From: Candidatus Omnitrophota bacterium
Lineage (GTDB): Bacteria; Omnitrophota; Gorgyraeia; JABMRJ01
Assembly (NCBI GenBank): GCA_016783555.1
Contig: JADHWH010000017.1
Coordinates: 1 to 34,068 of the forward strand
Length of the DNA stretch: 34,068 nucleotides
Direction: 5' to 3'
Both the position numbers and the translations under genes were made by a program. Each line of letters opens with the position of its first letter. Positions within the stretch are counted from its first letter, which is position 1. The notes under the pieces are model-generated. The model made no database searches, was not told where the DNA came from, and saw only the letters and a program-made list of their open reading frames with translations. Positions 22,592-34,068 of the stretch are shown one piece after another.

Positions 22592-22784
22592 AAAATTCGA
22601 AATTCGAATATCGAATTTCGAAACAAATTCGAATCACCGAAATTCGAATGACCAAAACGTAATGTTTTAAACATTTGTCCCGTATAAAGTTTCTTCAGAT
22701 GAAATTCTACGGGATCCCGCCAAAAACGGGGAAACATTCGGATTTTGGATTTGTTTCGAATTTCGGATTTCGTGCTTCGAAATT
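22592..22784. repeat. Large TTCGAA-rich palindromic element, copy A, with nested hairpin
   Basis: About 193 bases. Left arm (AAAATTCGAAATTCGAATATC..., through AAACAAATTCGAA) pairs imperfectly with the right arm (GGATTTGTTTCGAATTTCGG...TTCGAAATT). A second hairpin with arms CCCGTA (22679-22684) and TACGGG (22708-22713) and inner TTTC/GAAA is nested inside, making this copy longer than copies B and C. It fills the gap from HtpX to the GH94-type gene and abuts the latter's stop codon (22786). Confidence 0.85.
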
Positions 22785-22785
22785 A

Positions 22786-25209
22786 TCATCCCATTATCAC
22801 CTTGACCTTATAGGTCTTGCCCTTCTTGCCCGGCTTGATGACCTTTCCCTTCATGAGTTCACCGTCAATGTAAATCTCTTTTACCCCCTTTTCGACACCC
22901 TTGGGGTTTTTTATCTCTATATCATAGATAGCCCCCCTGAAAGGCCGTCTTATCTTACAACTCTTCCACTTCGAGGGTATAGCAGGGTCTATCAGCAGAC
23001 CTTTGTAATCCTTGCGGGCGCCCAATAGATACTCTGTCCCCGCCAGGAACGTCCAGCCGGCCGTTCCCGTTATCCAGGTAAACGCGCCCTCGCCGTAAAG
23101 GTAAGGATGTTCGGGTCCGACAAGATATTCGGCATAGACATAAGGCTCTGTCTTATAGCGGTCATAGTCATCCTGGCAGTTAGGCATAATCTTTTTCATG
23201 GAGCTGTACGCCTTATCTCCCCTTCCCGCCAGGCACTCCGCAGCAACCTGGAATGTGGCGGCATGGCAGAAGACGGCGGCATTCTCCTTTGTGCCTTCGG
23301 AGAACATGCTTATCCTTCCCAACCGGGCATCGAACTTGCTGTAAGCGGGATAGAATAATGCTATGCCGTGTTTTCCGTCGAGATATTTATCCACGGCCTT
23401 AAGCATCTTCTTGGTCCTCTCTTTGTCCGCAACGCCGGATAGTATCGCCCACGATTGGCTGTTTATATAGATCCTGCCTTCCTTATTTTCACTCGAGCCG
23501 TAAACGGTCCCGTCATCGGTAAATCCCCTTGCGTACCACTGGCCGTCCCAGCATAGGGAGTTAATCCTGTTATGCATGGTACGCGCCTTATTTTTAAGAT
23601 CCTTGGCCTCATCGTTCTTACCTATTAATCCCGCAAACTCCGATAGGATCTTAAGGGATCTGACAAGCGCCATGGCAAGCCATACGCTTTCACCCTTCTC
23701 TTTGATGCCGGCGGCGTCTATAGCGTCGTTCCAATCGGCGTGGCCTATCAGCGGAAGCCCTCTCTTGCCTACGTCGTTGAATGTGAAGTTCAGATTTCTC
23801 TCAAGGTGTTCAAAGAGCGTTCCTTCGCCGTCCGCCCTTCCTCCTCCCTTGAAATTAGCGTCTATCTCCCAACCCCTTATCCATCTGTCTTTAAGATACG
23901 GGAAATATTCATTCAGGACCTCTGTGTTTCCGGTCTCGTTTATATACGCCGCGACTGTAGCGGTAAGCCATATCTGGTGGTCTTTATTCGGCCTATGCCC
24001 CGCGGCCCCTAATGTATCCGCCCAGCCCGGCGCGGATGTGCCGTCTCTTCGTATCAATGACGCAATCTTTTTTATCTTTTCATAGGCATGGCCGGAGTCT
24101 ATAGACATGATTGCTTCCGCGTCCTGGCACGAGTCCCTGTAACCCTTTCCTCCCGAACCTTCGTGATAGTAACTGGGTGAGCGGGACCAGAAGTTGCATA
24201 TGTAAAGCTGGTACTTGACCCATATATTAATCATTAAATCGAAGTCTTTATCCGGCGTCTCTACTATGATATTATCGAGGATCCTCTTTCTCCAGAGCTC
24301 TTTTACTTCTTTTAATTCCTTCTTAGCCTGGGGAATACTGCGGTATTTCGTAAGCATCCTTCCCGCTTCATGAACCGCATCTGCCTGTCCCAATACAACC
24401 GCGAATTCCTTCGTCTTCTTCGCAGGAATTGTTAAGTTATGTTTGAATACAGCGACTCCGTCCTCGCCGGAGCAGAAAGGCGCGGTCTTGAATTTACCGC
24501 TTATCACGCTCTCGGGTCTCTCTTCCGTATTATACCTTCCCAGAAATGCGTCTTTTCTCGTGATGTAACCTTTCACAGGAAGGCTTGAGCCGAAAAACGC
24601 AGTATGGTGGAACGCTTGTATATTAAAGTCGCCCCACGCGGCGGTCTTCTTCGCAAAGATGCTCTTATGGGCCTTGTCGAACCATATCCTGTTGTAGAGG
24701 TTCATTATGTTTCTGTATCTAAGCTCTAAATGATAATCGCCCAGAAGCCATTCTATGTAGGGAAAAACTTCCAGAGATCTTTTTCTATTCGTATTATTCT
24801 TAACTTCCACCAGACATACTTCGCATGTGTCGTTTTTTGGAACGAAGAATGTTATCTTTGTCTTTATGCCGGAATATTCTGTCTCTATCTGTGTATATCC
24901 GAGACCGTGCCTTGCTTCATAAGAAGTCTGTTTTGCCCTTACGGGCTGGTATGTTGCGGACCAGTATTTCCTGCTTTTTTTGTCCCTTAAGTATAGGTAT
25001 CTCCCCGGTCTGTCAAAATGCCAGTTTTCGGGAAGCCATCTCAAGAGCCTGTCGGTCCTGCAGTCTTTATAGAAACTGTATCCGCCACCCTGGTGTGAGA
25101 CTATAGCGCAATAGTTCTCGTTCGTAAGGTAATTTATCCAGGGCCGCGGCGTATTGGGGTTAGTCACTACAAACTCCAAACCGTCTTTCGAAAAATGTCC
25201 GTATTTCAT
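22786..25209 (-). CDS. GH94-type glycoside phosphorylase (cellobiose phosphorylase-like)
   Basis: An 807-residue protein. An N-terminal beta-sandwich (to about 300) precedes an (alpha/alpha)6 barrel with GH94 signatures: YRDSCQDA (357-364), the ADWND motif (491-495) that contains the catalytic acid of the family, and SEGTKENAAVFCHAATF with substrate and phosphate-binding residues. The C-terminus has YLVGPEHPYLYGEGAFTWITGTAGW. No signal peptide, so it is probably cytoplasmic. Members cleave or make beta-glucosides (cellobiose, laminaribiose, sophorose and others) with phosphate; the linkage cannot be told here. An own promoter (25268-25295) drives it, and AAGGAG lies 12 bases before the ATG at 25209. 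Confidence 0.9.
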   Translation of the reverse strand: MKYGHFSKDGLEFVVTNPNTPRPWINYLTNENYCAIVSHQGGGYSFYKDCRTDRLLRWLPENWHFDRPGRYLYLRDKKSRKYWSATYQPVRAKQTSYEARHGLGYTQIETEYSGIKTKITFFVPKNDTCEVCLVEVKNNTNRKRSLEVFPYIEWLLGDYHLELRYRNIMNLYNRIWFDKAHKSIFAKKTAAWGDFNIQAFHHTAFFGSSLPVKGYITRKDAFLGRYNTEERPESVISGKFKTAPFCSGEDGVAVFKHNLTIPAKKTKEFAVVLGQADAVHEAGRMLTKYRSIPQAKKELKEVKELWRKRILDNIIVETPDKDFDLMINIWVKYQLYICNFWSRSPSYYHEGSGGKGYRDSCQDAEAIMSIDSGHAYEKIKKIASLIRRDGTSAPGWADTLGAAGHRPNKDHQIWLTATVAAYINETGNTEVLNEYFPYLKDRWIRGWEIDANFKGGGRADGEGTLFEHLERNLNFTFNDVGKRGLPLIGHADWNDAIDAAGIKEKGESVWLAMALVRSLKILSEFAGLIGKNDEAKDLKNKARTMHNRINSLCWDGQWYARGFTDDGTVYGSSENKEGRIYINSQSWAILSGVADKERTKKMLKAVDKYLDGKHGIALFYPAYSKFDARLGRISMFSEGTKENAAVFCHAATFQVAAECLAGRGDKAYSSMKKIMPNCQDDYDRYKTEPYVYAEYLVGPEHPYLYGEGAFTWITGTAGWTFLAGTEYLLGARKDYKGLLIDPAIPSKWKSCKIRRPFRGAIYDIEIKNPKGVEKGVKEIYIDGELMKGKVIKPGKKGKTYKVKVIMG

Positions 25210-25295: not shown

Positions 25296-25297
25296 GA

Positions 25298-25361
25298 AAA
25301 ATAGGGACAGGTCCATTTTTATTGTGTCTTTCTCGGGAAAAATGGACCTGTCCCTATTTTT
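25298..25361 (-). terminator. 23-bp perfect inverted repeat, likely terminator of the PilZ gene
   Basis: Arms AAAAATAGGGACAGGTCC-ATTTT (25298-25320) and its exact complement (25339-25361) flank an 18-base loop. On the minus strand the hairpin starts at the stop codon of the PilZ fusion gene and ends in CCCTATTTTT, a short T-run as in intrinsic terminators. The repeat also resembles dispersed REP-like sequences, so it may be a repeat that serves as a terminator. Confidence 0.75.
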
Positions 25362-27358
25362 TAATTTTCGGTGGGGGGTAATTTTAGGGGATTGTAGCCT
25401 TTGATGGCAAAGACGCCGTAGGCCGTTCCGCTTACAGAACCCGTATCCTTTCCTCCCGGGGTGCGCCATCCATGGCCTGTGTCTGCATTACCCTGGGTCG
25501 CATACGGGAGACATCCGCCCCCCTGTCCTGACCGCGAAGGGCTTGTTATGACCATTTTTTCCAGCTCATTTAAGTAAAATTGCGCCTTATCATAATAGAC
25601 CCCGGCCTTCTCGTTATCGCCCAGATCCAGATAAAAATTGCTCATCATCTTCAATGAGACTATCATCTGAGCGGTCCATTCACTCGAGACAACCCCTCCC
25701 CTTCCCAGATTCTTATGCTTGGCGAAATCAAATCCGGTTACCTTGACTATCTTCCCGTCGGGGCGTACAAAATCTACGGCGGTCTTACAGTTATCCTCTG
25801 CGAATTTCATTATCGCGTCGGGGTCCATCCCCACGTCCAGAAGAGTCTTTGGTCCTATGGCCGCTATAGACCACGCGAATGTGTCGGTAGCTATCGTGGA
25901 ATCGCCCTTGCCCCTCCTTATCCTGCCCCCGCTGCCGGTATAGGCGTATCTGGCTATCCAGGACAATGTCCTATCCGCGGCTTCTCTGTATTTTATATCG
26001 CCTGTCTTTTCATAAAGCATCTCAAAATATGCATACGCATCCAGATTATGCTCTGTTGAATACCAAGCAACATCCGGGCCGCCCCTTATTCCGTAATCCG
26101 AATCCTTCTTCTGTATGTCGATAACCCAGTCTCCGATATCTTTTGCCAACATAAGATATCCCTTATCACCCGTCTTATCCATATACTGCATAAGGGCGAT
26201 GCCCAGCCATAGATTAGGTCCGCAATGGACTGTACCTTCGATGACAGCGCCGTTAGTCGATGCGTAAGCGTTAACAAACCCGCCCTCGTATCTTTTGGCC
26301 TTATATTGGTAAAAATCAAATATTGATTTTGCGCTTTCTGCGTCATCCTCAAGCAGAAAGACCTGAGCAATGAGCGCCTGGTCATATGTAAAAGCCGTGT
26401 TCTTCAGCGCGGAGTCGCCTTCATAACTTGTGACAAGGCCTGTTCTTCTATTCTGATGCGACTTTAACCAGCGGTACATATTTTCGACAGTAGCTTCTTC
26501 CAGCCTTTTGCGTTTCTCTTCTATCTTTCTTAACTCATTCTTCCTCTTCTCTTCCTGAAGGGCTATCTCAGCCAGCTTTCCATCAAGACTCTCTTTGTCC
26601 GAATTGGCCTCTTGTAAAAGAGCCTCGAGGCTTTCAAGAGAGCGTCTGCTCATATCGAGCTGCGCCTTTAGTATCTCCATATCCTGCGCCGTTTCGTTTA
26701 GTTCTTTCTCCTTCGCGGCAAGTTTTCTCTTTTCCTCTTCGATCATTGCCACGTTCTCTTCTTGCAGTTCTAACCTCGTCAATAAAAGGCCCTTTTCTTG
26801 ACTGGCCTTCTCTATGAGCTCGAGGATAGCGCTCCTTTTTTCTATGACCTCTCCGAGCTCCTGTACGATAAGCCTGTTTTTCCTCCTTAACTTTATCTCA
26901 TCTGCCCTGTTGGAACCAAGCGCAATCAACATCGCTAAGAGCAATGCCGCCATCAACTTAGGCGCCCTGTATAGGCTCCCGGCATACCCGACGAGCCTTC
27001 TTCTATCCTTATCGCCTATCTTCTCGAACGAAAGGCCTATAAAACAGATGCTCTTCTTCGCTTCCCTGATAATCCTTATCCAGACAACACTGGAGATAGC
27101 CTCGATCGGCTTTGAGCCGACGGGTATCTCTATGTCTAAAGATATCTTGGCGGTCTTCTTCTCGATCATATCGGTCAATTGAGAATCCAGATTATTCGCG
27201 CGCAAAAGAATGCCGCCTTTGGAAACATCGGCCGTAAACCCCTGAAGGGCCTCAGACAGCACATTCTGTCCATCCAGGCTCAACAGCTTAAACCCTACGG
27301 GAAAGACCGATTGAAGCCTTATATATTTTCGTCGTTCGATACCTTTATACTCTCTCAT
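25361..27358 (-). CDS. PilZ domain - membrane helix - coiled coil - (alpha/alpha) toroid fusion protein
   Basis: About 665 residues from the ATG at 27358. Order: PilZ domain (about 1-125) with both c-di-GMP motifs, RxxxR (RKYIR, 10-14) and DxSxxG (DVSKGG, 44-49); one hydrophobic helix (about 134-148, LMAALLLAMLIALG); a charged coiled coil (about 155-293); then a six-hairpin toroid-like domain with WLGIALMQYMDKTGD, YEKTGDIKYREAADRTLSWIA and a C-terminal YGVFAIKGYNP. The layout suggests cytoplasmic c-di-GMP sensing joined to an extracytoplasmic glycan-binding or glycan-cleaving domain. I cannot name catalytic residues. The frame is open to 27424 but that part is repeat sequence. An ATG at 27367 is also possible. 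Confidence 0.82.
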   Translation of the reverse strand: MREYKGIERRKYIRLQSVFPVGFKLLSLDGQNVLSEALQGFTADVSKGGILLRANNLDSQLTDMIEKKTAKISLDIEIPVGSKPIEAISSVVWIRIIREAKKSICFIGLSFEKIGDKDRRRLVGYAGSLYRAPKLMAALLLAMLIALGSNRADEIKLRRKNRLIVQELGEVIEKRSAILELIEKASQEKGLLLTRLELQEENVAMIEEEKRKLAAKEKELNETAQDMEILKAQLDMSRRSLESLEALLQEANSDKESLDGKLAEIALQEEKRKNELRKIEEKRKRLEEATVENMYRWLKSHQNRRTGLVTSYEGDSALKNTAFTYDQALIAQVFLLEDDAESAKSIFDFYQYKAKRYEGGFVNAYASTNGAVIEGTVHCGPNLWLGIALMQYMDKTGDKGYLMLAKDIGDWVIDIQKKDSDYGIRGGPDVAWYSTEHNLDAYAYFEMLYEKTGDIKYREAADRTLSWIARYAYTGSGGRIRRGKGDSTIATDTFAWSIAAIGPKTLLDVGMDPDAIMKFAEDNCKTAVDFVRPDGKIVKVTGFDFAKHKNLGRGGVVSSEWTAQMIVSLKMMSNFYLDLGDNEKAGVYYDKAQFYLNELEKMVITSPSRSGQGGGCLPYATQGNADTGHGWRTPGGKDTGSVSGTAYGVFAIKGYNPLKLPPTEN

Positions 27359-27368
27359 ATTACACATT

Positions 27369-27508
27369 AAATCCGAAGCACGAAATCCGAAATTCGAAAC
27401 AAATTCGAATTTTCTAATTTTCAAATGGCCAAAACAGCAGTTTAGGACATTTAAATTTTGAAAATTTGAACATTGTTTCGGATTTCGATATTCGGATTTC
27501 GAATTTTT
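27369..27508. repeat. Large TTCGAA-rich palindromic element, copy B
   Basis: About 140 bases filling the gap between the PilZ fusion start and the GH116-type stop. Left arm reads AAATCCGAAGCACGAAATCC... through AAACAAATTCGAA; right arm reads TTGTTTCGGATTTCGATATTCGG... to GAATTTTTA. The GH116 stop codon (27509-27507) lies in the arm's end. Arms match copies A and C closely. Confidence 0.87.
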
Positions 27509-29636
27509 ATTTTGTTATCGCTTTGAGAGTCTTCTTTAGGCCCGGATCAACCTTTGCCAGCGCTAAGAATATCCCCCAGATATCCATATTTCTCATATAG
27601 TAATCGCCGAAGAGCCCTCTTCCGGTCTTCCGGTCAACAACATCAGGCTGATTCCATGCCGCTTTTATATTATAAGCGAAATTCTCCCAGACCCTCCTGG
27701 CAAGGTCAAGCCCCTCTCTTTTAAATCCCTCGAATACGCAGAGGCTGGCAAAGGCGTAGCTCATGCCCGGGAAGACATTCTTTGAATGAAAAGAGTTGGT
27801 GTTAACCCTGCCGTCTGAATAGACCGCGTTTACGAGACCATATTGCGACTTTGTGCCGTTAAGTTTTAAAATAGTCTTCACAGCCCTTCTTATCTTTTTT
27901 TTGTCCGCTATGTAACCCAGCCCTAACATGTGCGCATACCATTGGCCGTTTAACTGCCCGATAGTGCAGCTATTCTCGAGACCCTTCTTACTGCATATAT
28001 AATTGACAAAATAACGGTGGTTCCAAAGCTTCTCCTCGAAGCTCTTTCTGCCTTTCTTAAACCACTCTCTATAGATCATCTCGTGTTTTTTATCGCCGAA
28101 CATCCGCGCCATCTTCTCTGCCGCAAGGAGCGCGGCCAGGAATATGCTGGATGTGTATGAATTCGCGCCGTAGAAATTCCACATATCGAAAGTCTGATCC
28201 TGGCCTTCGTCATCGGGCAGAAAGTCCCTGTTCTTATCCTGCGCAAACTGCCATTCCATGGCCTTCTTGACATTCGGATAGATCTTCTTTAAAAACCTTC
28301 TGTCTTTTGTCGTAAGGTAGTCTCTGTAACACAAAAGGACAAACTTAGAACAGAGATCCTTCCACCTGTAATATGTGGTACCGTCGCTGGGCAGATCGAT
28401 TCTCTTCTTTCCGAGGTCGTGCGGTATGTATCCGTCTTTTCTCTGTGCCGCTGCGAACTGTCTCATGGATGTAAGCTCCAGATCCGGAAAGAGAAGCCCC
28501 AGCGGTATTGAGCCGTAGAATCTCACATCGAGCGTTCCCATCAGAGGACATACCATAGGCGCCTCATAGGCAGCAAACTCCCCCTTCCTGCCATACCATG
28601 TGCCGGAAAAGAGAGGATAGAGATTATTAACCAGGGCGTCTTTAAACCAATTCGGAAGCCCGCTCGATAAGACCTTATCATGCCAGGCCCGCGTTTGTAT
28701 ATAGAGTCTCTTTTGATGCGCAAACATATATCTCGCAACTTCCCTGGAATTCCTAAACCACTTCGCATACGCGTGGCCGACTGTATGGACAGGGAAGAAC
28801 CAGCTGTATATAACAGGTATCTCTTTTGTCTGGCCCGGCCTTAAATCGAATTTTACGCAGAGTGCGCCGCCCAACTCCCGGGATTCGCTCTCTACGACAC
28901 TCCCGGTGCTGATATTGGGAAGTCTTCCCATCTTCGAGAAATATTCCCAGGCATCGAGCTTCAGGCAGTTCTCTTTTAATCGAAAACACTCGCCCTGCAG
29001 ATTCCATTCCCCCATATACATGATTTCGCCTGAATTCCGCCCAACGCTTATGGTCATATCGCCGAGAGAGAAGTCATTTCGGATGGGTTCTTTACGGCGG
29101 CTGGCAAATGTAAGATGTGTGAAATCTTTATCTCGGGTAACGGTATTGAATCTGCCTATTCCCCAATCGCCGACGGTATTTCTGCCCATAATCAACAATG
29201 AGGCGGTTATAGTCTTTCTCGTAGGATTTTTCAGCTTAAACGTGAAGAATGCGCCGGGCAGGCTCGAATCTTTGGTATTCCGCGGGATGAGTGATGAGAA
29301 ACTTGAGAGTTCTATATTAAGCGGGATCTTTCTGTCATGGTACTCAAGGCGCGCAAAGGGGAAACTTCCTTCGTACTCTATCCTTTCAACGCGGGGGAAT
29401 GAATTTATCTTATGGGTCTGTAAGAGCTTTGCGGTTTTTACTCCGTCTGATTCTGCATATATACCGAAGTGGAATCCCAGCACCCCGGCCTTATTGTTTT
29501 TTAAGGGTTCGCTCCAGTTATTTTGGAAGGTGATAAAGTTGAAGGAACCGTTGGGCATTATCTCTATCTTTCCCGCCCCTATGCCTCCCAACGGCACGCC
29601 GGAATTCACATTGTCGCGTGAAGTATACTTTGGCAT
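27507..29636 (-). CDS. GH116-type beta-glucosidase-like protein
   Basis: A 709-residue protein of the GBA2/GH116 type. The N-terminal beta-sandwich begins with SGVPLGGIGAGKIE and FNFITFQNNWSEP. The (alpha/alpha)6 barrel contains the two family motifs: Glu358 in AAYEAP followed by GTLDVRFYGS, the likely nucleophile, and Asp484 in GQDQTFDMW followed by FYGANSYTSSIF, the likely acid/base. These assignments are by analogy with characterised GH116 enzymes. It lacks a clear signal peptide and may be cytoplasmic. GH116 members act on beta-glucosides or beta-xylosides. The ATG at 29636 has a TAGGTAAGGGG purine-rich site. It is flanked on both sides by copies of the same palindromic element. Confidence 0.88.
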   Translation of the reverse strand: MPKYTSRDNVNSGVPLGGIGAGKIEIMPNGSFNFITFQNNWSEPLKNNKAGVLGFHFGIYAESDGVKTAKLLQTHKINSFPRVERIEYEGSFPFARLEYHDRKIPLNIELSSFSSLIPRNTKDSSLPGAFFTFKLKNPTRKTITASLLIMGRNTVGDWGIGRFNTVTRDKDFTHLTFASRRKEPIRNDFSLGDMTISVGRNSGEIMYMGEWNLQGECFRLKENCLKLDAWEYFSKMGRLPNISTGSVVESESRELGGALCVKFDLRPGQTKEIPVIYSWFFPVHTVGHAYAKWFRNSREVARYMFAHQKRLYIQTRAWHDKVLSSGLPNWFKDALVNNLYPLFSGTWYGRKGEFAAYEAPMVCPLMGTLDVRFYGSIPLGLLFPDLELTSMRQFAAAQRKDGYIPHDLGKKRIDLPSDGTTYYRWKDLCSKFVLLCYRDYLTTKDRRFLKKIYPNVKKAMEWQFAQDKNRDFLPDDEGQDQTFDMWNFYGANSYTSSIFLAALLAAEKMARMFGDKKHEMIYREWFKKGRKSFEEKLWNHRYFVNYICSKKGLENSCTIGQLNGQWYAHMLGLGYIADKKKIRRAVKTILKLNGTKSQYGLVNAVYSDGRVNTNSFHSKNVFPGMSYAFASLCVFEGFKREGLDLARRVWENFAYNIKAAWNQPDVVDRKTGRGLFGDYYMRNMDIWGIFLALAKVDPGLKKTLKAITK

Positions 29637-29661: not shown

Positions 29662-29794
29662 AAAAATTCGAAGCACGAAATCCGAAGTTCGAAACAAATA
29701 CGAATTACCAAAATCGCGAATGACCAAAACAAAAAGTTTTGAAAATTCGAATTTCGAATTTGTTTCGGATTTCGATATTCGGATTTCGAATTTT
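29662..29794. repeat. Large TTCGAA-rich palindromic element, copy C
   Basis: About 133 bases between the GH116 start and the stop of the membrane-anchored TIM-barrel gene. Left arm AATTCGAAGCACGAAATCC..., right arm TTTGTTTCGGATTTCGATA...CGAATTTTA; the neighbouring stop codon (29795-29793) lies at its end. The right-hand 35 bases are nearly identical to copy B. Confidence 0.87.
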
Positions 29795-31094
29795 ATTTCC
29801 TCCAGAATTTCTTCAGTATATAATAGGCCTTCTTTGGAACCCTTTTATTTATGGCCCCTCCCCCTTCGGTGGTCAGGCCGACAATACCCCACCACTCTTC
29901 ATTCATATTGGTACCGATCTTTGCGTCGTAGTAATAGGCGCTGTTGGCCCAGCTTCCTTTGGCGTCATGTCTCTTCCAGCCGGCAGTCCGCTGTTCGTCA
30001 TACTTCCACCACTCGTCATTCCACTCAAAGATGAAACCTCCTAAGCTGTTTCCCTCTCCTTTCTTACCGGCGCTGTTATCCACTATCTCCTGGCACAACA
30101 TCTGTAAAAATAGCGCCTGATGGTCTTCGTCCTCTTTCTTGTTATACCCGTCGTATCTGTCACAACCGTATTCTATCATAACGGCGGGCTTTCCGAAATT
30201 CCTTTTAAGGCGCTTCCAGAAAGTGCCGAATGTCCTCCCGGTATAGACTATACCGCCTAAGATATCTATATCGGCGCAGAGCTCCCTGGCTGTCTCTATC
30301 GAGGCGAGCTCACCGTTTCCCATAACCACAGGATGGTTCGGGTCTATCTCCTTAATCGCCTTTGCCAGGTCGTTTACAAACGTATAATATATGCGCGCCT
30401 TCGCTTCTCTCTTCGCCCTGGGATTCTCTATGGCCTCAATCTCGTCGGTAGTCCATGGATTTACATTTCTGTCAAAACTGTAGTTATTCTCATTTCCCAG
30501 AATCCAGAAAAGCACCCCCGGTTCATCTTTATAATCCTTGACCATCTGTATAACTTCCTCTTTTATCCGCGCCCTTATCTCGGGCCGCGCGTAATTCGGC
30601 GGCGGATACTTCCAGAAGTCGAGGTAATGGCCCAGGGCGCTTCTTATGCCGTAGAGCTCATAAAATGTCCTTATGACTTTCCTTCCGCTTTCGGCATTCT
30701 TTGTATGAAAGTAAAAACGGACCGTATTGATACCCATATCTTTCATCAATTTTCCGTCCGTAAGCCAGGGCTCGTTCGAATCGGTCCAGACGTCATAATC
30801 ATATCCCTTCCCGATAGGTGTGGGTATATAACAGACGCCTTTAATAAAATAAGGTCTTCCGCCGAGCAAGAGCTGGTAATCGCCGTTCTCCGATTGCGCC
30901 ACTGAAACTTTTTGGAGAGGTTTTGGCGTCCGGGATATTATGTATCCTGCGACGGCAATCGCAGCCACAATAAATGGGACTACTACAGCCGCTATAATTA
31001 CAGACTTTTTATTCACAGCGTGACCTTTCCTGTCTTCTTTGTCTTTCTTCTCTTTAAAAAGCGGATTTTTTGACATTATAAAATATTTATTCAT
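29793..31094 (-). CDS. Membrane-anchored GH2/GH5-like TIM-barrel glycosidase
   Basis: A 433-residue protein with a cytoplasmic lysine-rich N-terminus, one membrane helix (about 31-55) and a glycosidase-like TIM barrel outside. The barrel starts at NGDYQLLLGGRPYFIKGV, has a likely acid/base Glu202 in WILGNENNY and a likely nucleophile Glu308 in VMIEYGCDRY. The C-terminal FIFEWNDEWWK and NEEWWGIVGL are shared with the paralogue at 32509-34068. The N-terminal helix is not followed by a cleavage site, so it probably acts as an anchor. AGGA precedes the ATG at 31094 and the CBM-like lipoprotein gene ends seven bases upstream. Substrate unknown; a beta-glucan is plausible. Confidence 0.85.
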   Translation of the reverse strand: MNKYFIMSKNPLFKEKKDKEDRKGHAVNKKSVIIAAVVVPFIVAAIAVAGYIISRTPKPLQKVSVAQSENGDYQLLLGGRPYFIKGVCYIPTPIGKGYDYDVWTDSNEPWLTDGKLMKDMGINTVRFYFHTKNAESGRKVIRTFYELYGIRSALGHYLDFWKYPPPNYARPEIRARIKEEVIQMVKDYKDEPGVLFWILGNENNYSFDRNVNPWTTDEIEAIENPRAKREAKARIYYTFVNDLAKAIKEIDPNHPVVMGNGELASIETARELCADIDILGGIVYTGRTFGTFWKRLKRNFGKPAVMIEYGCDRYDGYNKKEDEDHQALFLQMLCQEIVDNSAGKKGEGNSLGGFIFEWNDEWWKYDEQRTAGWKRHDAKGSWANSAYYYDAKIGTNMNEEWWGIVGLTTEGGGAINKRVPKKAYYILKKFWRK

Positions 31095-31101
31095 CGTTTT
31101 C

Positions 31102-31809
31102 CTATTCGTATATTATATCATCTAAATAAAAGACCATCCCGTCAGGATTATCAAGCGCGCTTGCCACCCAGGCGAAACCGCCTATTATATAGGAAAGATC
31201 AAGCTCCGTAAGGTCTATGGTGTACTGCTGCCACTCCTGAGTCAGCGTTACAGGGCCGATACTTGCGGTATCGGTATCGGGATAGGCGCCGGATATGCCG
31301 CCCATCTTAAACTCCCTTATAGCCTCGCCGCCTTTTTCGCCGCGCGCCCAGAATGTGAGCTTCGCGGCCTTCTCAAGGTCGAATCCCCCGCCTTCTCTCA
31401 TGCCCCAGTTATTCTCGGGATTCTGCCAATATATGCCGGCCCATCTATTTCCCTGCTTGGCCTCCGCCGTATATTCAATCCTTATACACGACTTTCTGGA
31501 ATGGACATTATCCTTCCAGTTCGGGTTAAATTTCATGTCGCCGTAATCCCCCATCCACCCCGAGGGAATAAAATTATTCCTGAAGTATCCATTGTCTACA
31601 TAGACAGCAAAACTCCTCCACTCGCCGCGCTGAAGAGATGAGATACCCACAAGCTCTTCGCTCTCCTCTTCTGTATAGATAAGTTCCAGCTCTTCCTCGG
31701 GAAGGTCAAGCTTTACCTTCTCCTCAAGCTTCTCTTTTGAACATCCAGCAATAACGATTATGCATGCGCATAACATCAAGGAAAGAAGAACAAAATTTCT
31801 TCCACGCAT
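31102..31809 (-). CDS. Lipoprotein with beta-sandwich carbohydrate-binding-like domain
   Basis: About 235 residues. A lipoprotein signal peptide ends at the lipobox IAG-Cys23, with Ser at +2, which suggests outer-membrane sorting. A short acidic linker (25-55) precedes a jelly-roll-like domain with FIPSGWMGDYGDM, GIYWQNPENNWG, KLTFWARGEKGGE and the end FYLDDIIYE. The domain is closely related to the secreted protein encoded next door (31881-32462). Such domains often bind carbohydrate, but no binding residues can be assigned. AGGAGG lies before the ATG at 31809; the open frame to 31953 runs through a palindrome and is not used. Confidence 0.82.
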   Translation of the reverse strand: MRGRNFVLLSLMLCACIIVIAGCSKEKLEEKVKLDLPEEELELIYTEEESEELVGISSLQRGEWRSFAVYVDNGYFRNNFIPSGWMGDYGDMKFNPNWKDNVHSRKSCIRIEYTAEAKQGNRWAGIYWQNPENNWGMREGGGFDLEKAAKLTFWARGEKGGEAIREFKMGGISGAYPDTDTASIGPVTLTQEWQQYTIDLTELDLSYIIGGFAWVASALDNPDGMVFYLDDIIYE

Positions 31810-31822
31810 CTCGCCTCCTCTT

Positions 31823-31879
31823 TTCGTATATAGTATATCGTAAAAAACGCAATACGATATACCATATACGATATACGAA
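31823..31879. repeat. CGTATAT-rich palindromic element
   Basis: Arms TTCGTATATAGTATATCGTA (31823-31842) and 31853-31879 (starting TACGATATACC, ending ATACGAA) pair with one seven-base gap. It fills the gap between the two CBM-like genes and abuts the stop codon (31881) of the upstream one. Confidence 0.82.
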
Positions 31880-31880
31880 A

Positions 31881-32462
31881 TTATTCGTACGTTATGTCGT
31901 CCAGGTAAATAGTGAATCCTTCGGGGTTGTTGCTCCTGCTCGCGGACCAGCAAAAACCGCCGCTTATGTAGGAGAGATCAACGCCGTCAAGGCTTACTGA
32001 GTACTTCTTCCAATCATTAGTTAAGACGACCGGCCCTATACCCGCTGAATCGGAATCGCCGTATTCCCCGGTTATGCCGCCTATCTTAAACTCATTAATG
32101 ACCTCGCCGCCTTTTTCGCCGCGCGCCCAGAATGTAACAGCCTTGGCACCGGTGAGATCGAAACCTCCGTCTCTTGAACCCCAGTTATTCGCAGGATTCT
32201 GCCAGTAGATACCGCACCAGCCAGCGCCTTGAGATGACTTGGCGAGATACGTTATCTTAATACACGTCTTGCCGGTATAGGTATCCTCGGTCCAGCCGTC
32301 GTTGAGCGACATGTCGTTATAATCCCCCATCCATCCCGAAGGGATGAAGTGGTTATTAGGCGCCCATCTATCGGTATAGACGTCAAAGCCTTCAAAGGCA
32401 TGCGCCATCCCGAATAAACAGAACGCAAAAGAAATCGCCAAAAATAAGGCTTTCTTCTTCAT
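31881..32462 (-). CDS. Secreted beta-sandwich carbohydrate-binding-like protein
   Basis: A 193-residue protein with a Sec signal peptide (about 1-22, cut after AHA) and a single jelly-roll-like domain: FIPSGWMGDYNDM, CIKITYL, GIYWQNPANNWGSRDGG, AVTFWARGEKGGE and YLDDITYE. It matches the domain of the neighbouring lipoprotein almost motif for motif, so the two are paralogues, one soluble and one lipid-anchored. A strong GGAGGAGG site lies six bases before the ATG at 32462. It sits between the two TIM-barrel genes and probably binds the same glycan that these act on. Confidence 0.85.
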   Translation of the reverse strand: MKKKALFLAISFAFCLFGMAHAFEGFDVYTDRWAPNNHFIPSGWMGDYNDMSLNDGWTEDTYTGKTCIKITYLAKSSQGAGWCGIYWQNPANNWGSRDGGFDLTGAKAVTFWARGEKGGEVINEFKIGGITGEYGDSDSAGIGPVVLTNDWKKYSVSLDGVDLSYISGGFCWSASRSNNPEGFTIYLDDITYE

Positions 32463-32508: not shown

Positions 32509-34068
32509 TTACTCATTCCACAATTTCTTATATGAATAATAGCTCTTTCGCAGCTGCCTTAAATACGGGCTTTTCGAACCGTCTCCCTGTCCCGCGATTC
32601 CAAACCATTCTTCATATACCCATCCTCCGGGAAAAGGTCCTGTGTATAGCCCTTCGGTATCGTGTATATCCGGCTCATATGCCTTCCACCATTCGTCCAG
32701 CCATTCAAAGACAACCCCGCCTATGGAATTGCCCGCGCCTTCGAAGCCGGCTGAATTGTAGAGTATATCCTCCCATTCACCCTGATGGTACTTTGCCTGA
32801 TCCACCTCTGCTATCTCGCTGGACCTTCCTCTCTGATAAGCGGGGCAGCCGTATTCCGTCACCATGACCGGCTTATCGCAGAGCCTCTTGACGGATCCCC
32901 AAAATCCTATGCCGAAACCTTGTTCGCCGCGGTAGCTGTTGGAACCATAAATATCGACTTCGGGCGCGTATTTTGCGAAGACATCCAGATAGAGAAGGTC
33001 GCCGCTGCATACAGCGACAGGTCGGGTTGGATCGATCTCTTTTATCATCTTTGCGACATCATTTACAAATTTATAATAACTCACGGGATCCTTCTTTGCG
33101 TTGTTGGCCACGCCGTAATTATTCTCGTTTCCCAGGACCCACATAAGCACATATGGCTCATCCTTGTACTCCTCCACCATCTCCTTTACGCTTCTTTTCA
33201 TGTTCGTCTGGTGTATCGGATTGGAATAGTCCGTGCCGTCGTGCCAGGTTGCGCCGGAGCCGATTGCGTAAGCGCCGATAAAATCCCCCATAAGCACCAT
33301 AAGGCCGTACTCCTCATAGGCCGCGCGGAAGAAATCTTTATTCTTGTTATAAGCATGGTGATATACCCTTATAGAATTGGCGCCCATATCATCAAGGAGC
33401 TTGAGATCGCCTACCCTTTCTTCGTTCCGGTCTTTTTTGTTGTTTAAGTTGCTATCCACCCATGAATCATACGGACCATCTATCAGGTCGTTTCTGTTGT
33501 AATCCTCAAGGGTCCAGTCTTTGAGCGTCCCTTTATCGGGACTCTGCCCTATAACGGTCGGCGTATATGCGACGGCCTTAACGAGTATCGGTTTTCCGTC
33601 GAGCATAAGCTGCCAGTGGCCGTTCTCATACTGCACCAACTCAACCTTAGGCCCTCCGATTCTCTTCACCGCCTTAAGACCGGTTAATGCTTTGTGTTCT
33701 ACGATGAGCTCTTCGGGAGCGCATCTTATAATCTTCCCCGGGTTGACATTTATTACGTCGTTTCTTATATCAAAATCGAAGCTGTTCTCCACTACTATAT
33801 CGGCTCCTACCAGCTTCATGCGGAGTTCCGGATGCTTCCTTGTAAGATATTTTATCTTATCTATAGCGACCTGTCCTACATACCATGGCGTCTTCCAGTA
33901 TGTCCAGCTTATAGTCTTCGGAAAATGCACAACCACGGCGTAGTAGGCCTTTATGGCGTGCTTATAATGCATGGCTTTCTCCAATACGTGCGCGGTATAA
34001 TATAACTTTACTCCCGGGTCCTCCGCGGCAGTCGCCCATTTGTAAAAATTAGCCTGGAGATTCGGGGA
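32509..34068 (-). CDS. TIM-barrel glycosidase-like protein with helical N-terminal region (partial)
   Basis: The frame is open from the stop at 32509 to the window edge, so the true start lies beyond 34068; the TTG at 33984 is internal. The visible N-terminal 80 residues (ANFYKWATAAEDPG..., YYTAHVLEKAMHYKHAIKAY) look like TPR-type helices. A GH2/GH5-like TIM barrel follows: NGHWQLMLDGKPILVKAV, likely acid/base Glu in WVLGNENNYG and likely nucleophile Glu in VTEYGCPAY, ending with VFEWLDEWWK and YEEWFGIAG. It is a paralogue of the membrane-anchored protein at 29793-31094. Location in the cell cannot be told without the N-terminus. Confidence 0.85.
   Translation of the reverse strand, partial: SPNLQANFYKWATAAEDPGVKLYYTAHVLEKAMHYKHAIKAYYAVVVHFPKTISWTYWKTPWYVGQVAIDKIKYLTRKHPELRMKLVGADIVVENSFDFDIRNDVINVNPGKIIRCAPEELIVEHKALTGLKAVKRIGGPKVELVQYENGHWQLMLDGKPILVKAVAYTPTVIGQSPDKGTLKDWTLEDYNRNDLIDGPYDSWVDSNLNNKKDRNEERVGDLKLLDDMGANSIRVYHHAYNKNKDFFRAAYEEYGLMVLMGDFIGAYAIGSGATWHDGTDYSNPIHQTNMKRSVKEMVEEYKDEPYVLMWVLGNENNYGVANNAKKDPVSYYKFVNDVAKMIKEIDPTRPVAVCSGDLLYLDVFAKYAPEVDIYGSNSYRGEQGFGIGFWGSVKRLCDKPVMVTEYGCPAYQRGRSSEIAEVDQAKYHQGEWEDILYNSAGFEGAGNSIGGVVFEWLDEWWKAYEPDIHDTEGLYTGPFPGGWVYEEWFGIAGQGDGSKSPYLRQLRKSYYSYKKLWNE

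Follow-up and report, generated by a model that had tools for sequence, protein, structure and literature searches.

One chain from a PilZ domain to a probable glycan-enzyme barrel

Can a single polypeptide join a receptor for the second messenger cyclic di-GMP (c-di-GMP) on one side of a membrane to a carbohydrate-related domain on the other? The question is raised by one gene in the window, that is, the whole 34,068-nucleotide stretch of DNA from a Candidatus Omnitrophota bacterium that was analysed. The gene (25361–27358, minus strand, as are all genes and protein features of the window given below) is a stop-free frame with an ATG start and encodes a protein of 665 residues, P0001. An alternative TTG start at 27424 would extend the frame across an intergenic repeat element (27369–27507); the ATG at 27358 is therefore the better start. 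The protein consists of a PilZ domain (residues 8–125), a transmembrane (TM) helix (129–147), a helical stalk of about 140 residues and a C-terminal domain of about 380 residues. A sequence-only reading had proposed this layout, with a stalk of 140 and a toroid of 370 residues; translation, Pfam matches, the single hydrophobic helix and a barrel predicted by AlphaFold2 bear it out, and the sizes are correct to within about ten residues.

A scan for the toroid across the contigs of 84,980 species genomes returned 22 loci, all of which encode PilZ, TM helix, stalk and toroid in this order. The layout recurs at 22 of 22 loci and in dozens of further genomes, and is therefore neither chance nor misassembly. 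Our preferred reading, to which we give a probability of roughly 0.5, is that P0001 is a membrane-anchored periplasmic glycan-processing enzyme under c-di-GMP control. The architecture, its conservation, the predicted fold, a conserved acidic core, the export of relatives and the glycan context are directly supported here.

The PilZ domain keeps its receptor motifs

The PilZ domain (26984–27337) matches Pfam PF07238 with 25.3 bits over the whole chain and 30.4 bits for the domain alone (Pfam cutoff 22.5), and PF07238 is matched in all 23 aligned orthologues. Among PDB entries it matches YpfA (5vx6, E = 5e-5). The RxxxR motif (R10-x-x-x-R14; 27317–27331) has R10 in 80 of 80 orthologues and R14 in 79, with Lys in the remaining one; in the DxSxxG motif (D44-V-S46-K-G-G49; 27212–27229), position 44 is Asp or Asn in 79/80, S46 is kept in 53 (Gly in 24) and G49 in 79. 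The window protein carries three marks of a PilZ receptor, namely a PF07238 score over the cutoff, RxxxR and [D/N]xSxxG (as DVSKGG), and the PilZ domain is intact, as the sequence-only reading had stated. The alignment of about 80 orthologues includes one or two with damaged N termini (L067 and L068). In one of these, L068:946–2637, the TM helix is missing along with the latter half of PilZ and stalk and toroid remain in frame, which is either an assembly error or a real deletion.

PilZ might instead mediate protein contacts without binding c-di-GMP, leaving an envelope enzyme outside second-messenger control. The Gly at position 46 in 24 of the 80 orthologues and the moderate score of the window protein would suit such a role. 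However, both arginines and G49 are essentially invariant, D/N44 is nearly so, and the profile match to the YpfA PilZ domain spans R, R and NxSxGG. The genome of the window itself encodes 18 PilZ and 9 GGDEF domains, which makes c-di-GMP signalling plausible and counts further against a PilZ domain that does not bind the ligand. We consider this alternative unlikely.

A single membrane helix and a stalk of variable length

The membrane helix (26918–26974) was identified by hydrophobicity and by comparison of orthologues. Its mean KD value is 1.72, against an average of 2.3 (range 1.7–2.9) over 23 orthologues, and the hydrophobic stretch behaves as a single TM helix in all the aligned orthologues, in keeping with the sequence-only reading. 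Counted over 15 residues on each flank of the helix, Lys and Arg average 4.3 towards PilZ and 2.9 towards the stalk in the 23 orthologues (mean net charge 3.7 versus 1.5), which argues for an orientation with the N terminus inside and the C terminus outside. The window protein is an exception to this rule, with four such residues on the PilZ side and six on the stalk side.

The toroid is probably periplasmic, judging by relatives that lack PilZ and are mostly exported. Such relatives were found in Omnitrophota, in a second phylum, in rhizobia, Massilia and Streptomyces, and in a phage. Under a strict rule, 26 of 35 have a signal or anchor segment, compared with 131 of 486 background open reading frames (27%); the 35 are 42 pooled proteins minus 7 PilZ proteins missed by the motif rule. 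Several of the nine signal-negative relatives have N termini that resemble signal peptides by eye.

The stalk (residues 148–284; 26507–26917) is helical, of the coiled-coil type, in the AlphaFold2 model and by orthologue comparison. In the model, which was run on 23-row alignments and reached a pLDDT of 86.0 and a pTM of 0.74 for the whole chain, a helix starts where PilZ ends, crosses the membrane and enters the stalk almost without a break (residues 116–226 and 228–300). The L157-to-W297 distance differs between orthologues, the shortest being 80 and the longest 188 residues. Raw lengths suggested a heptad-locked stalk, with 62 of 80 equal to 0 or 1 modulo 7; this idea was dropped, since of 31 length changes traced on the tree just 16 differ from a multiple of 7 by no more than one residue, against about 13 expected. 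Given this variable length and the lack of a heptad phase, there is no strong preference for an allosteric switch as opposed to recruitment.

The sequence-only reading had the protein carry a signal across the membrane, a claim that goes beyond the anatomy, which also fits an enzyme merely tethered or recruited by c-di-GMP. In that case the toroid would be a constitutively active periplasmic glycan enzyme that PilZ and c-di-GMP only position at a synthase complex, with no transmembrane allostery. A stalk free to vary in length is what a spacer would be expected to show, a bridging role has been proposed for the periplasmic domain of Alg44 (PMC3815931), and a rhizobial toroid without a PilZ domain of its own lies near a GT2 gene (see below). 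By contrast, tethering alone would need neither the near-continuous helix nor the fixed domain order of every full orthologue, and most orthologues have no gene for a partner synthase next to them. We hold recruitment without allostery to be possible, at clearly less than even odds.

The toroid resembles carbohydrate enzymes and matches no Pfam or NCBIfam family over cutoff

AlphaFold2 and Foldseek identify the C-terminal domain (residues 285–665; 25364–26506) as an (α/α)6 toroid, a 12-helix barrel that begins at about residue 285 and that, modelled alone, has a pLDDT of 87.6 and a pTM of 0.90. The PDB matches listed by Foldseek are (α/α)6 barrels, nearly all of them carbohydrate enzymes. They include the endo-β-1,2-glucanase 5gzh (E = 2.7e-8), which we take to be of the GH144 type, the endomannosidase MmpH (7qsj; TM-score 0.63 by query and 0.70 by target), cellobiose and glucose 2-epimerases, GH76 mannanases, the GH15 enzyme KfIG (5z3a–e) and GH88. 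The glycan-type toroid of the sequence-only reading therefore has a carbohydrate-enzyme fold, and with PilZ-less relatives that are mostly exported, neither a cytoplasmic location nor an unrelated fold was found.

No Pfam or NCBIfam family matches the toroid above its cutoff. The nearest relatives by sequence profile are GH76 proteins in the PDB (6u4z, E = 5e-7, with toroid family profile A3), that is, α-1,6-mannanases of the same fold; the GH76 Pfam profile gives a weak match below its cutoff in 7 of 23 members (best 4e-4) and none in the window member. Membership of GH76 was judged by the catalytic Asp-Asp ahead of the conserved Trp of helix 4 and was rejected, as this position aligns with G380-P381-N382-x-W384, invariant in the 23 aligned orthologues, so that G-P-N replaces the Asp pair. 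AGE and cellobiose 2-epimerases use a His pair in catalysis. Membership of this group was likewise rejected, since H437 is present in only 13 of 26 members of the wider family and the likeness is one of fold alone; the idea of a lyase, which rested on H437, fails for the same reason.

GH15 enzymes have a catalytic acid Glu in the α5–α6 loop, a base Glu in the α11–α12 loop and a Tyr in the α1–α2 loop (PMC12446779). The toroid shares with KfIG the barrel, the α1–α2 Tyr (Y325) and the α5–α6 Glu (E436); however, its other invariant Glu (E560) lies in the α9–α10 loop and no superfamily-invariant acid is found in the α11–α12 loop, and we rejected GH15 membership. In MmpH, whose target-normalised TM-score is among the best, the catalytic candidates comprise Asp47/Asp50, close to the first inter-helix loop, together with Glu262 (PMC9883506); D326 and E560 would correspond to this Asp acid and Glu base by order alone, and MmpH differs in having about 13% identity and neither PilZ nor stalk.

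An acidic core is kept across distant relatives

Residues were surveyed in 26 PilZ-less relatives from Omnitrophota, Phyllobacterium, Rhizobium, Massilia, Streptomyces and a Coprococcus phage, in which Y325, E436, G483 and E560 are invariant. The pair Y325-D326 (26381–26386) lies in the α1–α2 loop; Y325 is found in 26/26 relatives and D326, a candidate catalytic acid, in 24/26. E436 (26051–26053), in the α5–α6 loop at the start of helix 6, and E560 (25679–25681), in the α9–α10 loop, are also candidate catalytic residues and occur in all 26 relatives and all 80 orthologues. D492 (25883–25885), in the α7–α8 loop, is kept in 25 of 26 relatives and 79 of 80 orthologues. Within the PilZ-bearing orthologues, D326, E436, H437, D440, D486, D544, E560 and H629 are all present in 80/80. 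In the model, the Tyr and these acids are located where helices 2, 6, 8 and 10 begin or immediately ahead of that point, in odd-to-even loops, which would put these residues on one mouth of the barrel.

From this conservation, the toroid appears to be an active glycan enzyme that works by acid catalysis and forms a family of its own. It could alternatively be a glycan sensor or scaffold, a non-catalytic binding or docking pseudoenzyme that couples the state of surface glycans to c-di-GMP effectors; the G-P-N in place of the GH76 Asp pair, the fact that no known family's catalytic residues are all present and the want of any Pfam or NCBIfam family over threshold would fit. Against this, E436, E560, D492 and D326 are kept across phyla, in exported relatives and in a phage protein, at what the model suggests is a single barrel mouth, and a binding-only domain is not expected to keep the same acids at 20–30% identity. 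A pseudoenzyme is, in our judgement, quite improbable.

The fusion is mainly an Omnitrophota feature

The 22 loci of the wide scan mostly come from genomes named Omnitrophota; one record is called Elusimicrobia and three have no phylum in their name. Of the 193 Omnitrophota genomes sampled, the toroid is present in 97 at E ≤ 1e-8 and in near full-length form in 66 (E ≤ 2e-135). The frames of these 66 toroids span 564–726 residues in 64 cases, 1056 residues in one and, in one that starts near a contig end, 452 residues. In a second group, the phylum to which the genome of locus L039 belongs, the toroid is present in 22 of 120 genomes, for the most part in proteins about 500 residues long, and the PilZ form occurs only in the L039 genome itself; the fusion thus appears to be mainly a feature of Omnitrophota.

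Several variants of the architecture were seen. At L044:3919–7089 (also L105), an M48 Ste24-type peptidase is fused in frame to PilZ-TM-toroid in a 1056-residue protein, which looks like the case of a single genome. The genome of the window has a paralogue of 461 residues (L022:2741–4123, contig C54) with the order TM-PilZ-TM-coiled coil and no toroid, indicating that the PilZ-TM-stalk module is reused. Toroid relatives also occur inside giant Omnitrophota frames (G109:C2, 70,450 residues; G103:C6, 57,099 residues; and L097).

Glycan genes adjoin the locus

In the window, the next gene downstream encodes a GH94 phosphorylase (22786–25209; PF17167, 4e-107; PF06165, 2e-71) and the next upstream a GH116 protein (27507–29636; PF04685, 2e-84; PF12215, 6e-49). 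Farther upstream lie a membrane-anchored TIM-barrel glycosidase-like protein (29793–31094; PF02836, 4e-6) with an N-terminal hydrophobic helix, two related small exported proteins of choice-of-anchor or CBM-like type (31102–32462), one with a lipobox-like GCSKE, and a second TIM-barrel glycosidase-like protein that is GH2/GH72-like (32509–33984; PF02836, 2e-13; PF03198, 1e-5, just below the cutoff). This GH116/GH94/TIM-barrel cluster also occurs at about nine other loci, one of them only probable. Across 57 surveyed loci, a TPR-DUF3857-transglutaminase gene is a neighbour in 28, an endonuclease-III-like gene in 25 and a separate M48 peptidase gene in 11. With 28 of 57 loci having the transglutaminase-type neighbour, not glycan genes, a β-glucan substrate may hold for one branch only.

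No polysaccharide synthase is encoded within the window, and a PF02364 search found no match in its genome, nor in any control genome, which makes this negative uninformative. Two Omnitrophota relatives combine an N-terminal toroid with a PF02364 glucan-synthase match on one chain, and a third has GT2, radical-SAM and B12-binding domains with the toroid on a single chain (frames of 2300–2900 residues). On Phyllobacterium and Rhizobium plasmids, the toroid gene is clustered with genes for an HlyD adaptor and a GT2 'cellulose synthase catalytic subunit'; rhizobial BgsA, a mixed-linkage glucan synthase activated by c-di-GMP (PMC5567048), is of the same general kind as this GT2. Toroid relatives on a Massilia plasmid (L141) and in a Coprococcus phage (L145) adjoin tail-fibre and endolysin genes, and are possibly phage depolymerase-like enzymes.

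Two repeat families are present in the cluster. Directly 3′ of the gene, at 25297–25361, lies a 24-bp perfect inverted repeat, AAAAATAGGGACAGGTCCATTTTT, whose half-site has 19 matches genome-wide, mostly in facing pairs; it is a member of a REP-like hairpin family and possibly also serves as a terminator. Three gaps of the cluster (22593–22785, 27369–27507 and 29664–29794) contain a TTCGAA-rich element, about 139 bp long and bounded by inverted ends; it is MITE-like, and the genome has about 20 copies of it that are nearly full length, at 73–86% identity.

Comparison with known systems

In the BcsA/BcsZ cellulose system, and likewise in the clostridial CcsZ system, sensor and glycosidase are separate proteins, BcsZ being a GH8 (α/α)6 barrel, whereas the window protein has sensor and glycosidase-type barrel on one chain. 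LapD senses c-di-GMP through degenerate GGDEF-EAL domains and not through PilZ. According to PMC5231407, LapD is alike in that one membrane protein relays the c-di-GMP state from cytoplasm to periplasm, and differs in acting on a periplasmic protease partner, LapG, instead of being the enzyme itself. The two cellulose systems, BcsA/BcsZ and clostridial CcsZ (PMC7710045), resemble the present case in combining PilZ control of glycan export with a periplasmic or extracellular glycosidase.

The nearest precedent is Alg44 of Pseudomonas, which has a cytoplasmic c-di-GMP-binding PilZ domain, one membrane region, a periplasmic domain and a role in exopolysaccharide production (PMC3815931). The window protein has this PilZ-TM-periplasmic order, its periplasmic part being placed there by its exported relatives. 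The periplasmic domain of Alg44, however, is of the membrane-fusion (MexA-like) type and not an (α/α)6 barrel, and its gene stands in an alginate operon with that for the glycosyltransferase Alg8; the Pfam scan of the window protein returned no HlyD family. A literature search, which most subscription papers lay beyond, yielded no paper that links PilZ to a toroid or to Omnitrophota biology, and no described PilZ protein that ends in a glycosidase-type barrel. The statement of the sequence-only reading that no characterised protein has such a layout accordingly needs narrowing: Alg44 is a precedent for PilZ-TM-periplasm, and the glycosidase-type barrel at the far end is new.

Proposed function and implications

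In the mechanism that we favour, for which we infer ligand binding, catalysis, substrate and transmission, PilZ would bind c-di-GMP in the cytoplasm, and one helix would cross the inner membrane and continue as the helical stalk. The (α/α)6 barrel would process exported or nascent polysaccharide in the periplasm, probably a β-glucan in the lineage of the window. Its chemistry would most likely be that of a hydrolase or transglycosidase, with the catalytic acids among D326, E436, D492 and E560, and c-di-GMP binding would act through the helix on the activity of the enzyme, its oligomeric state or its docking to partners. In a stronger form, a single protein would do the whole task throughout the phylum: cytoplasmic c-di-GMP would directly switch, through the TM helix and with no partner needed, a periplasmic enzyme of an unclassified (α/α)6 family that cuts or rearranges glycans; this we put forward only tentatively and think rather doubtful.

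Known PilZ receptors control synthases and flagella, and Alg44 extends into the periplasm; we found no description of one with the glycan enzyme itself attached across the membrane. Omnitrophota, across which the PilZ-toroid protein is widely found, form a large phylum that is uncultivated and for which epibiotic or predatory traits have been reported; its giant proteins are described as poorly understood in function (PMC10066038), and toroid relatives give some of these giant frames a candidate carbohydrate-enzyme domain. The toroid represents a widespread family, enzyme-like and with its acidic core invariant, that has no Pfam or NCBIfam entry over cutoff; a new carbohydrate-enzyme family could be named from one biochemical assay on the rhizobial member. 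For the cell, the fusion suggests that a surface-sugar enzyme can be switched or placed directly with cyclic di-GMP.
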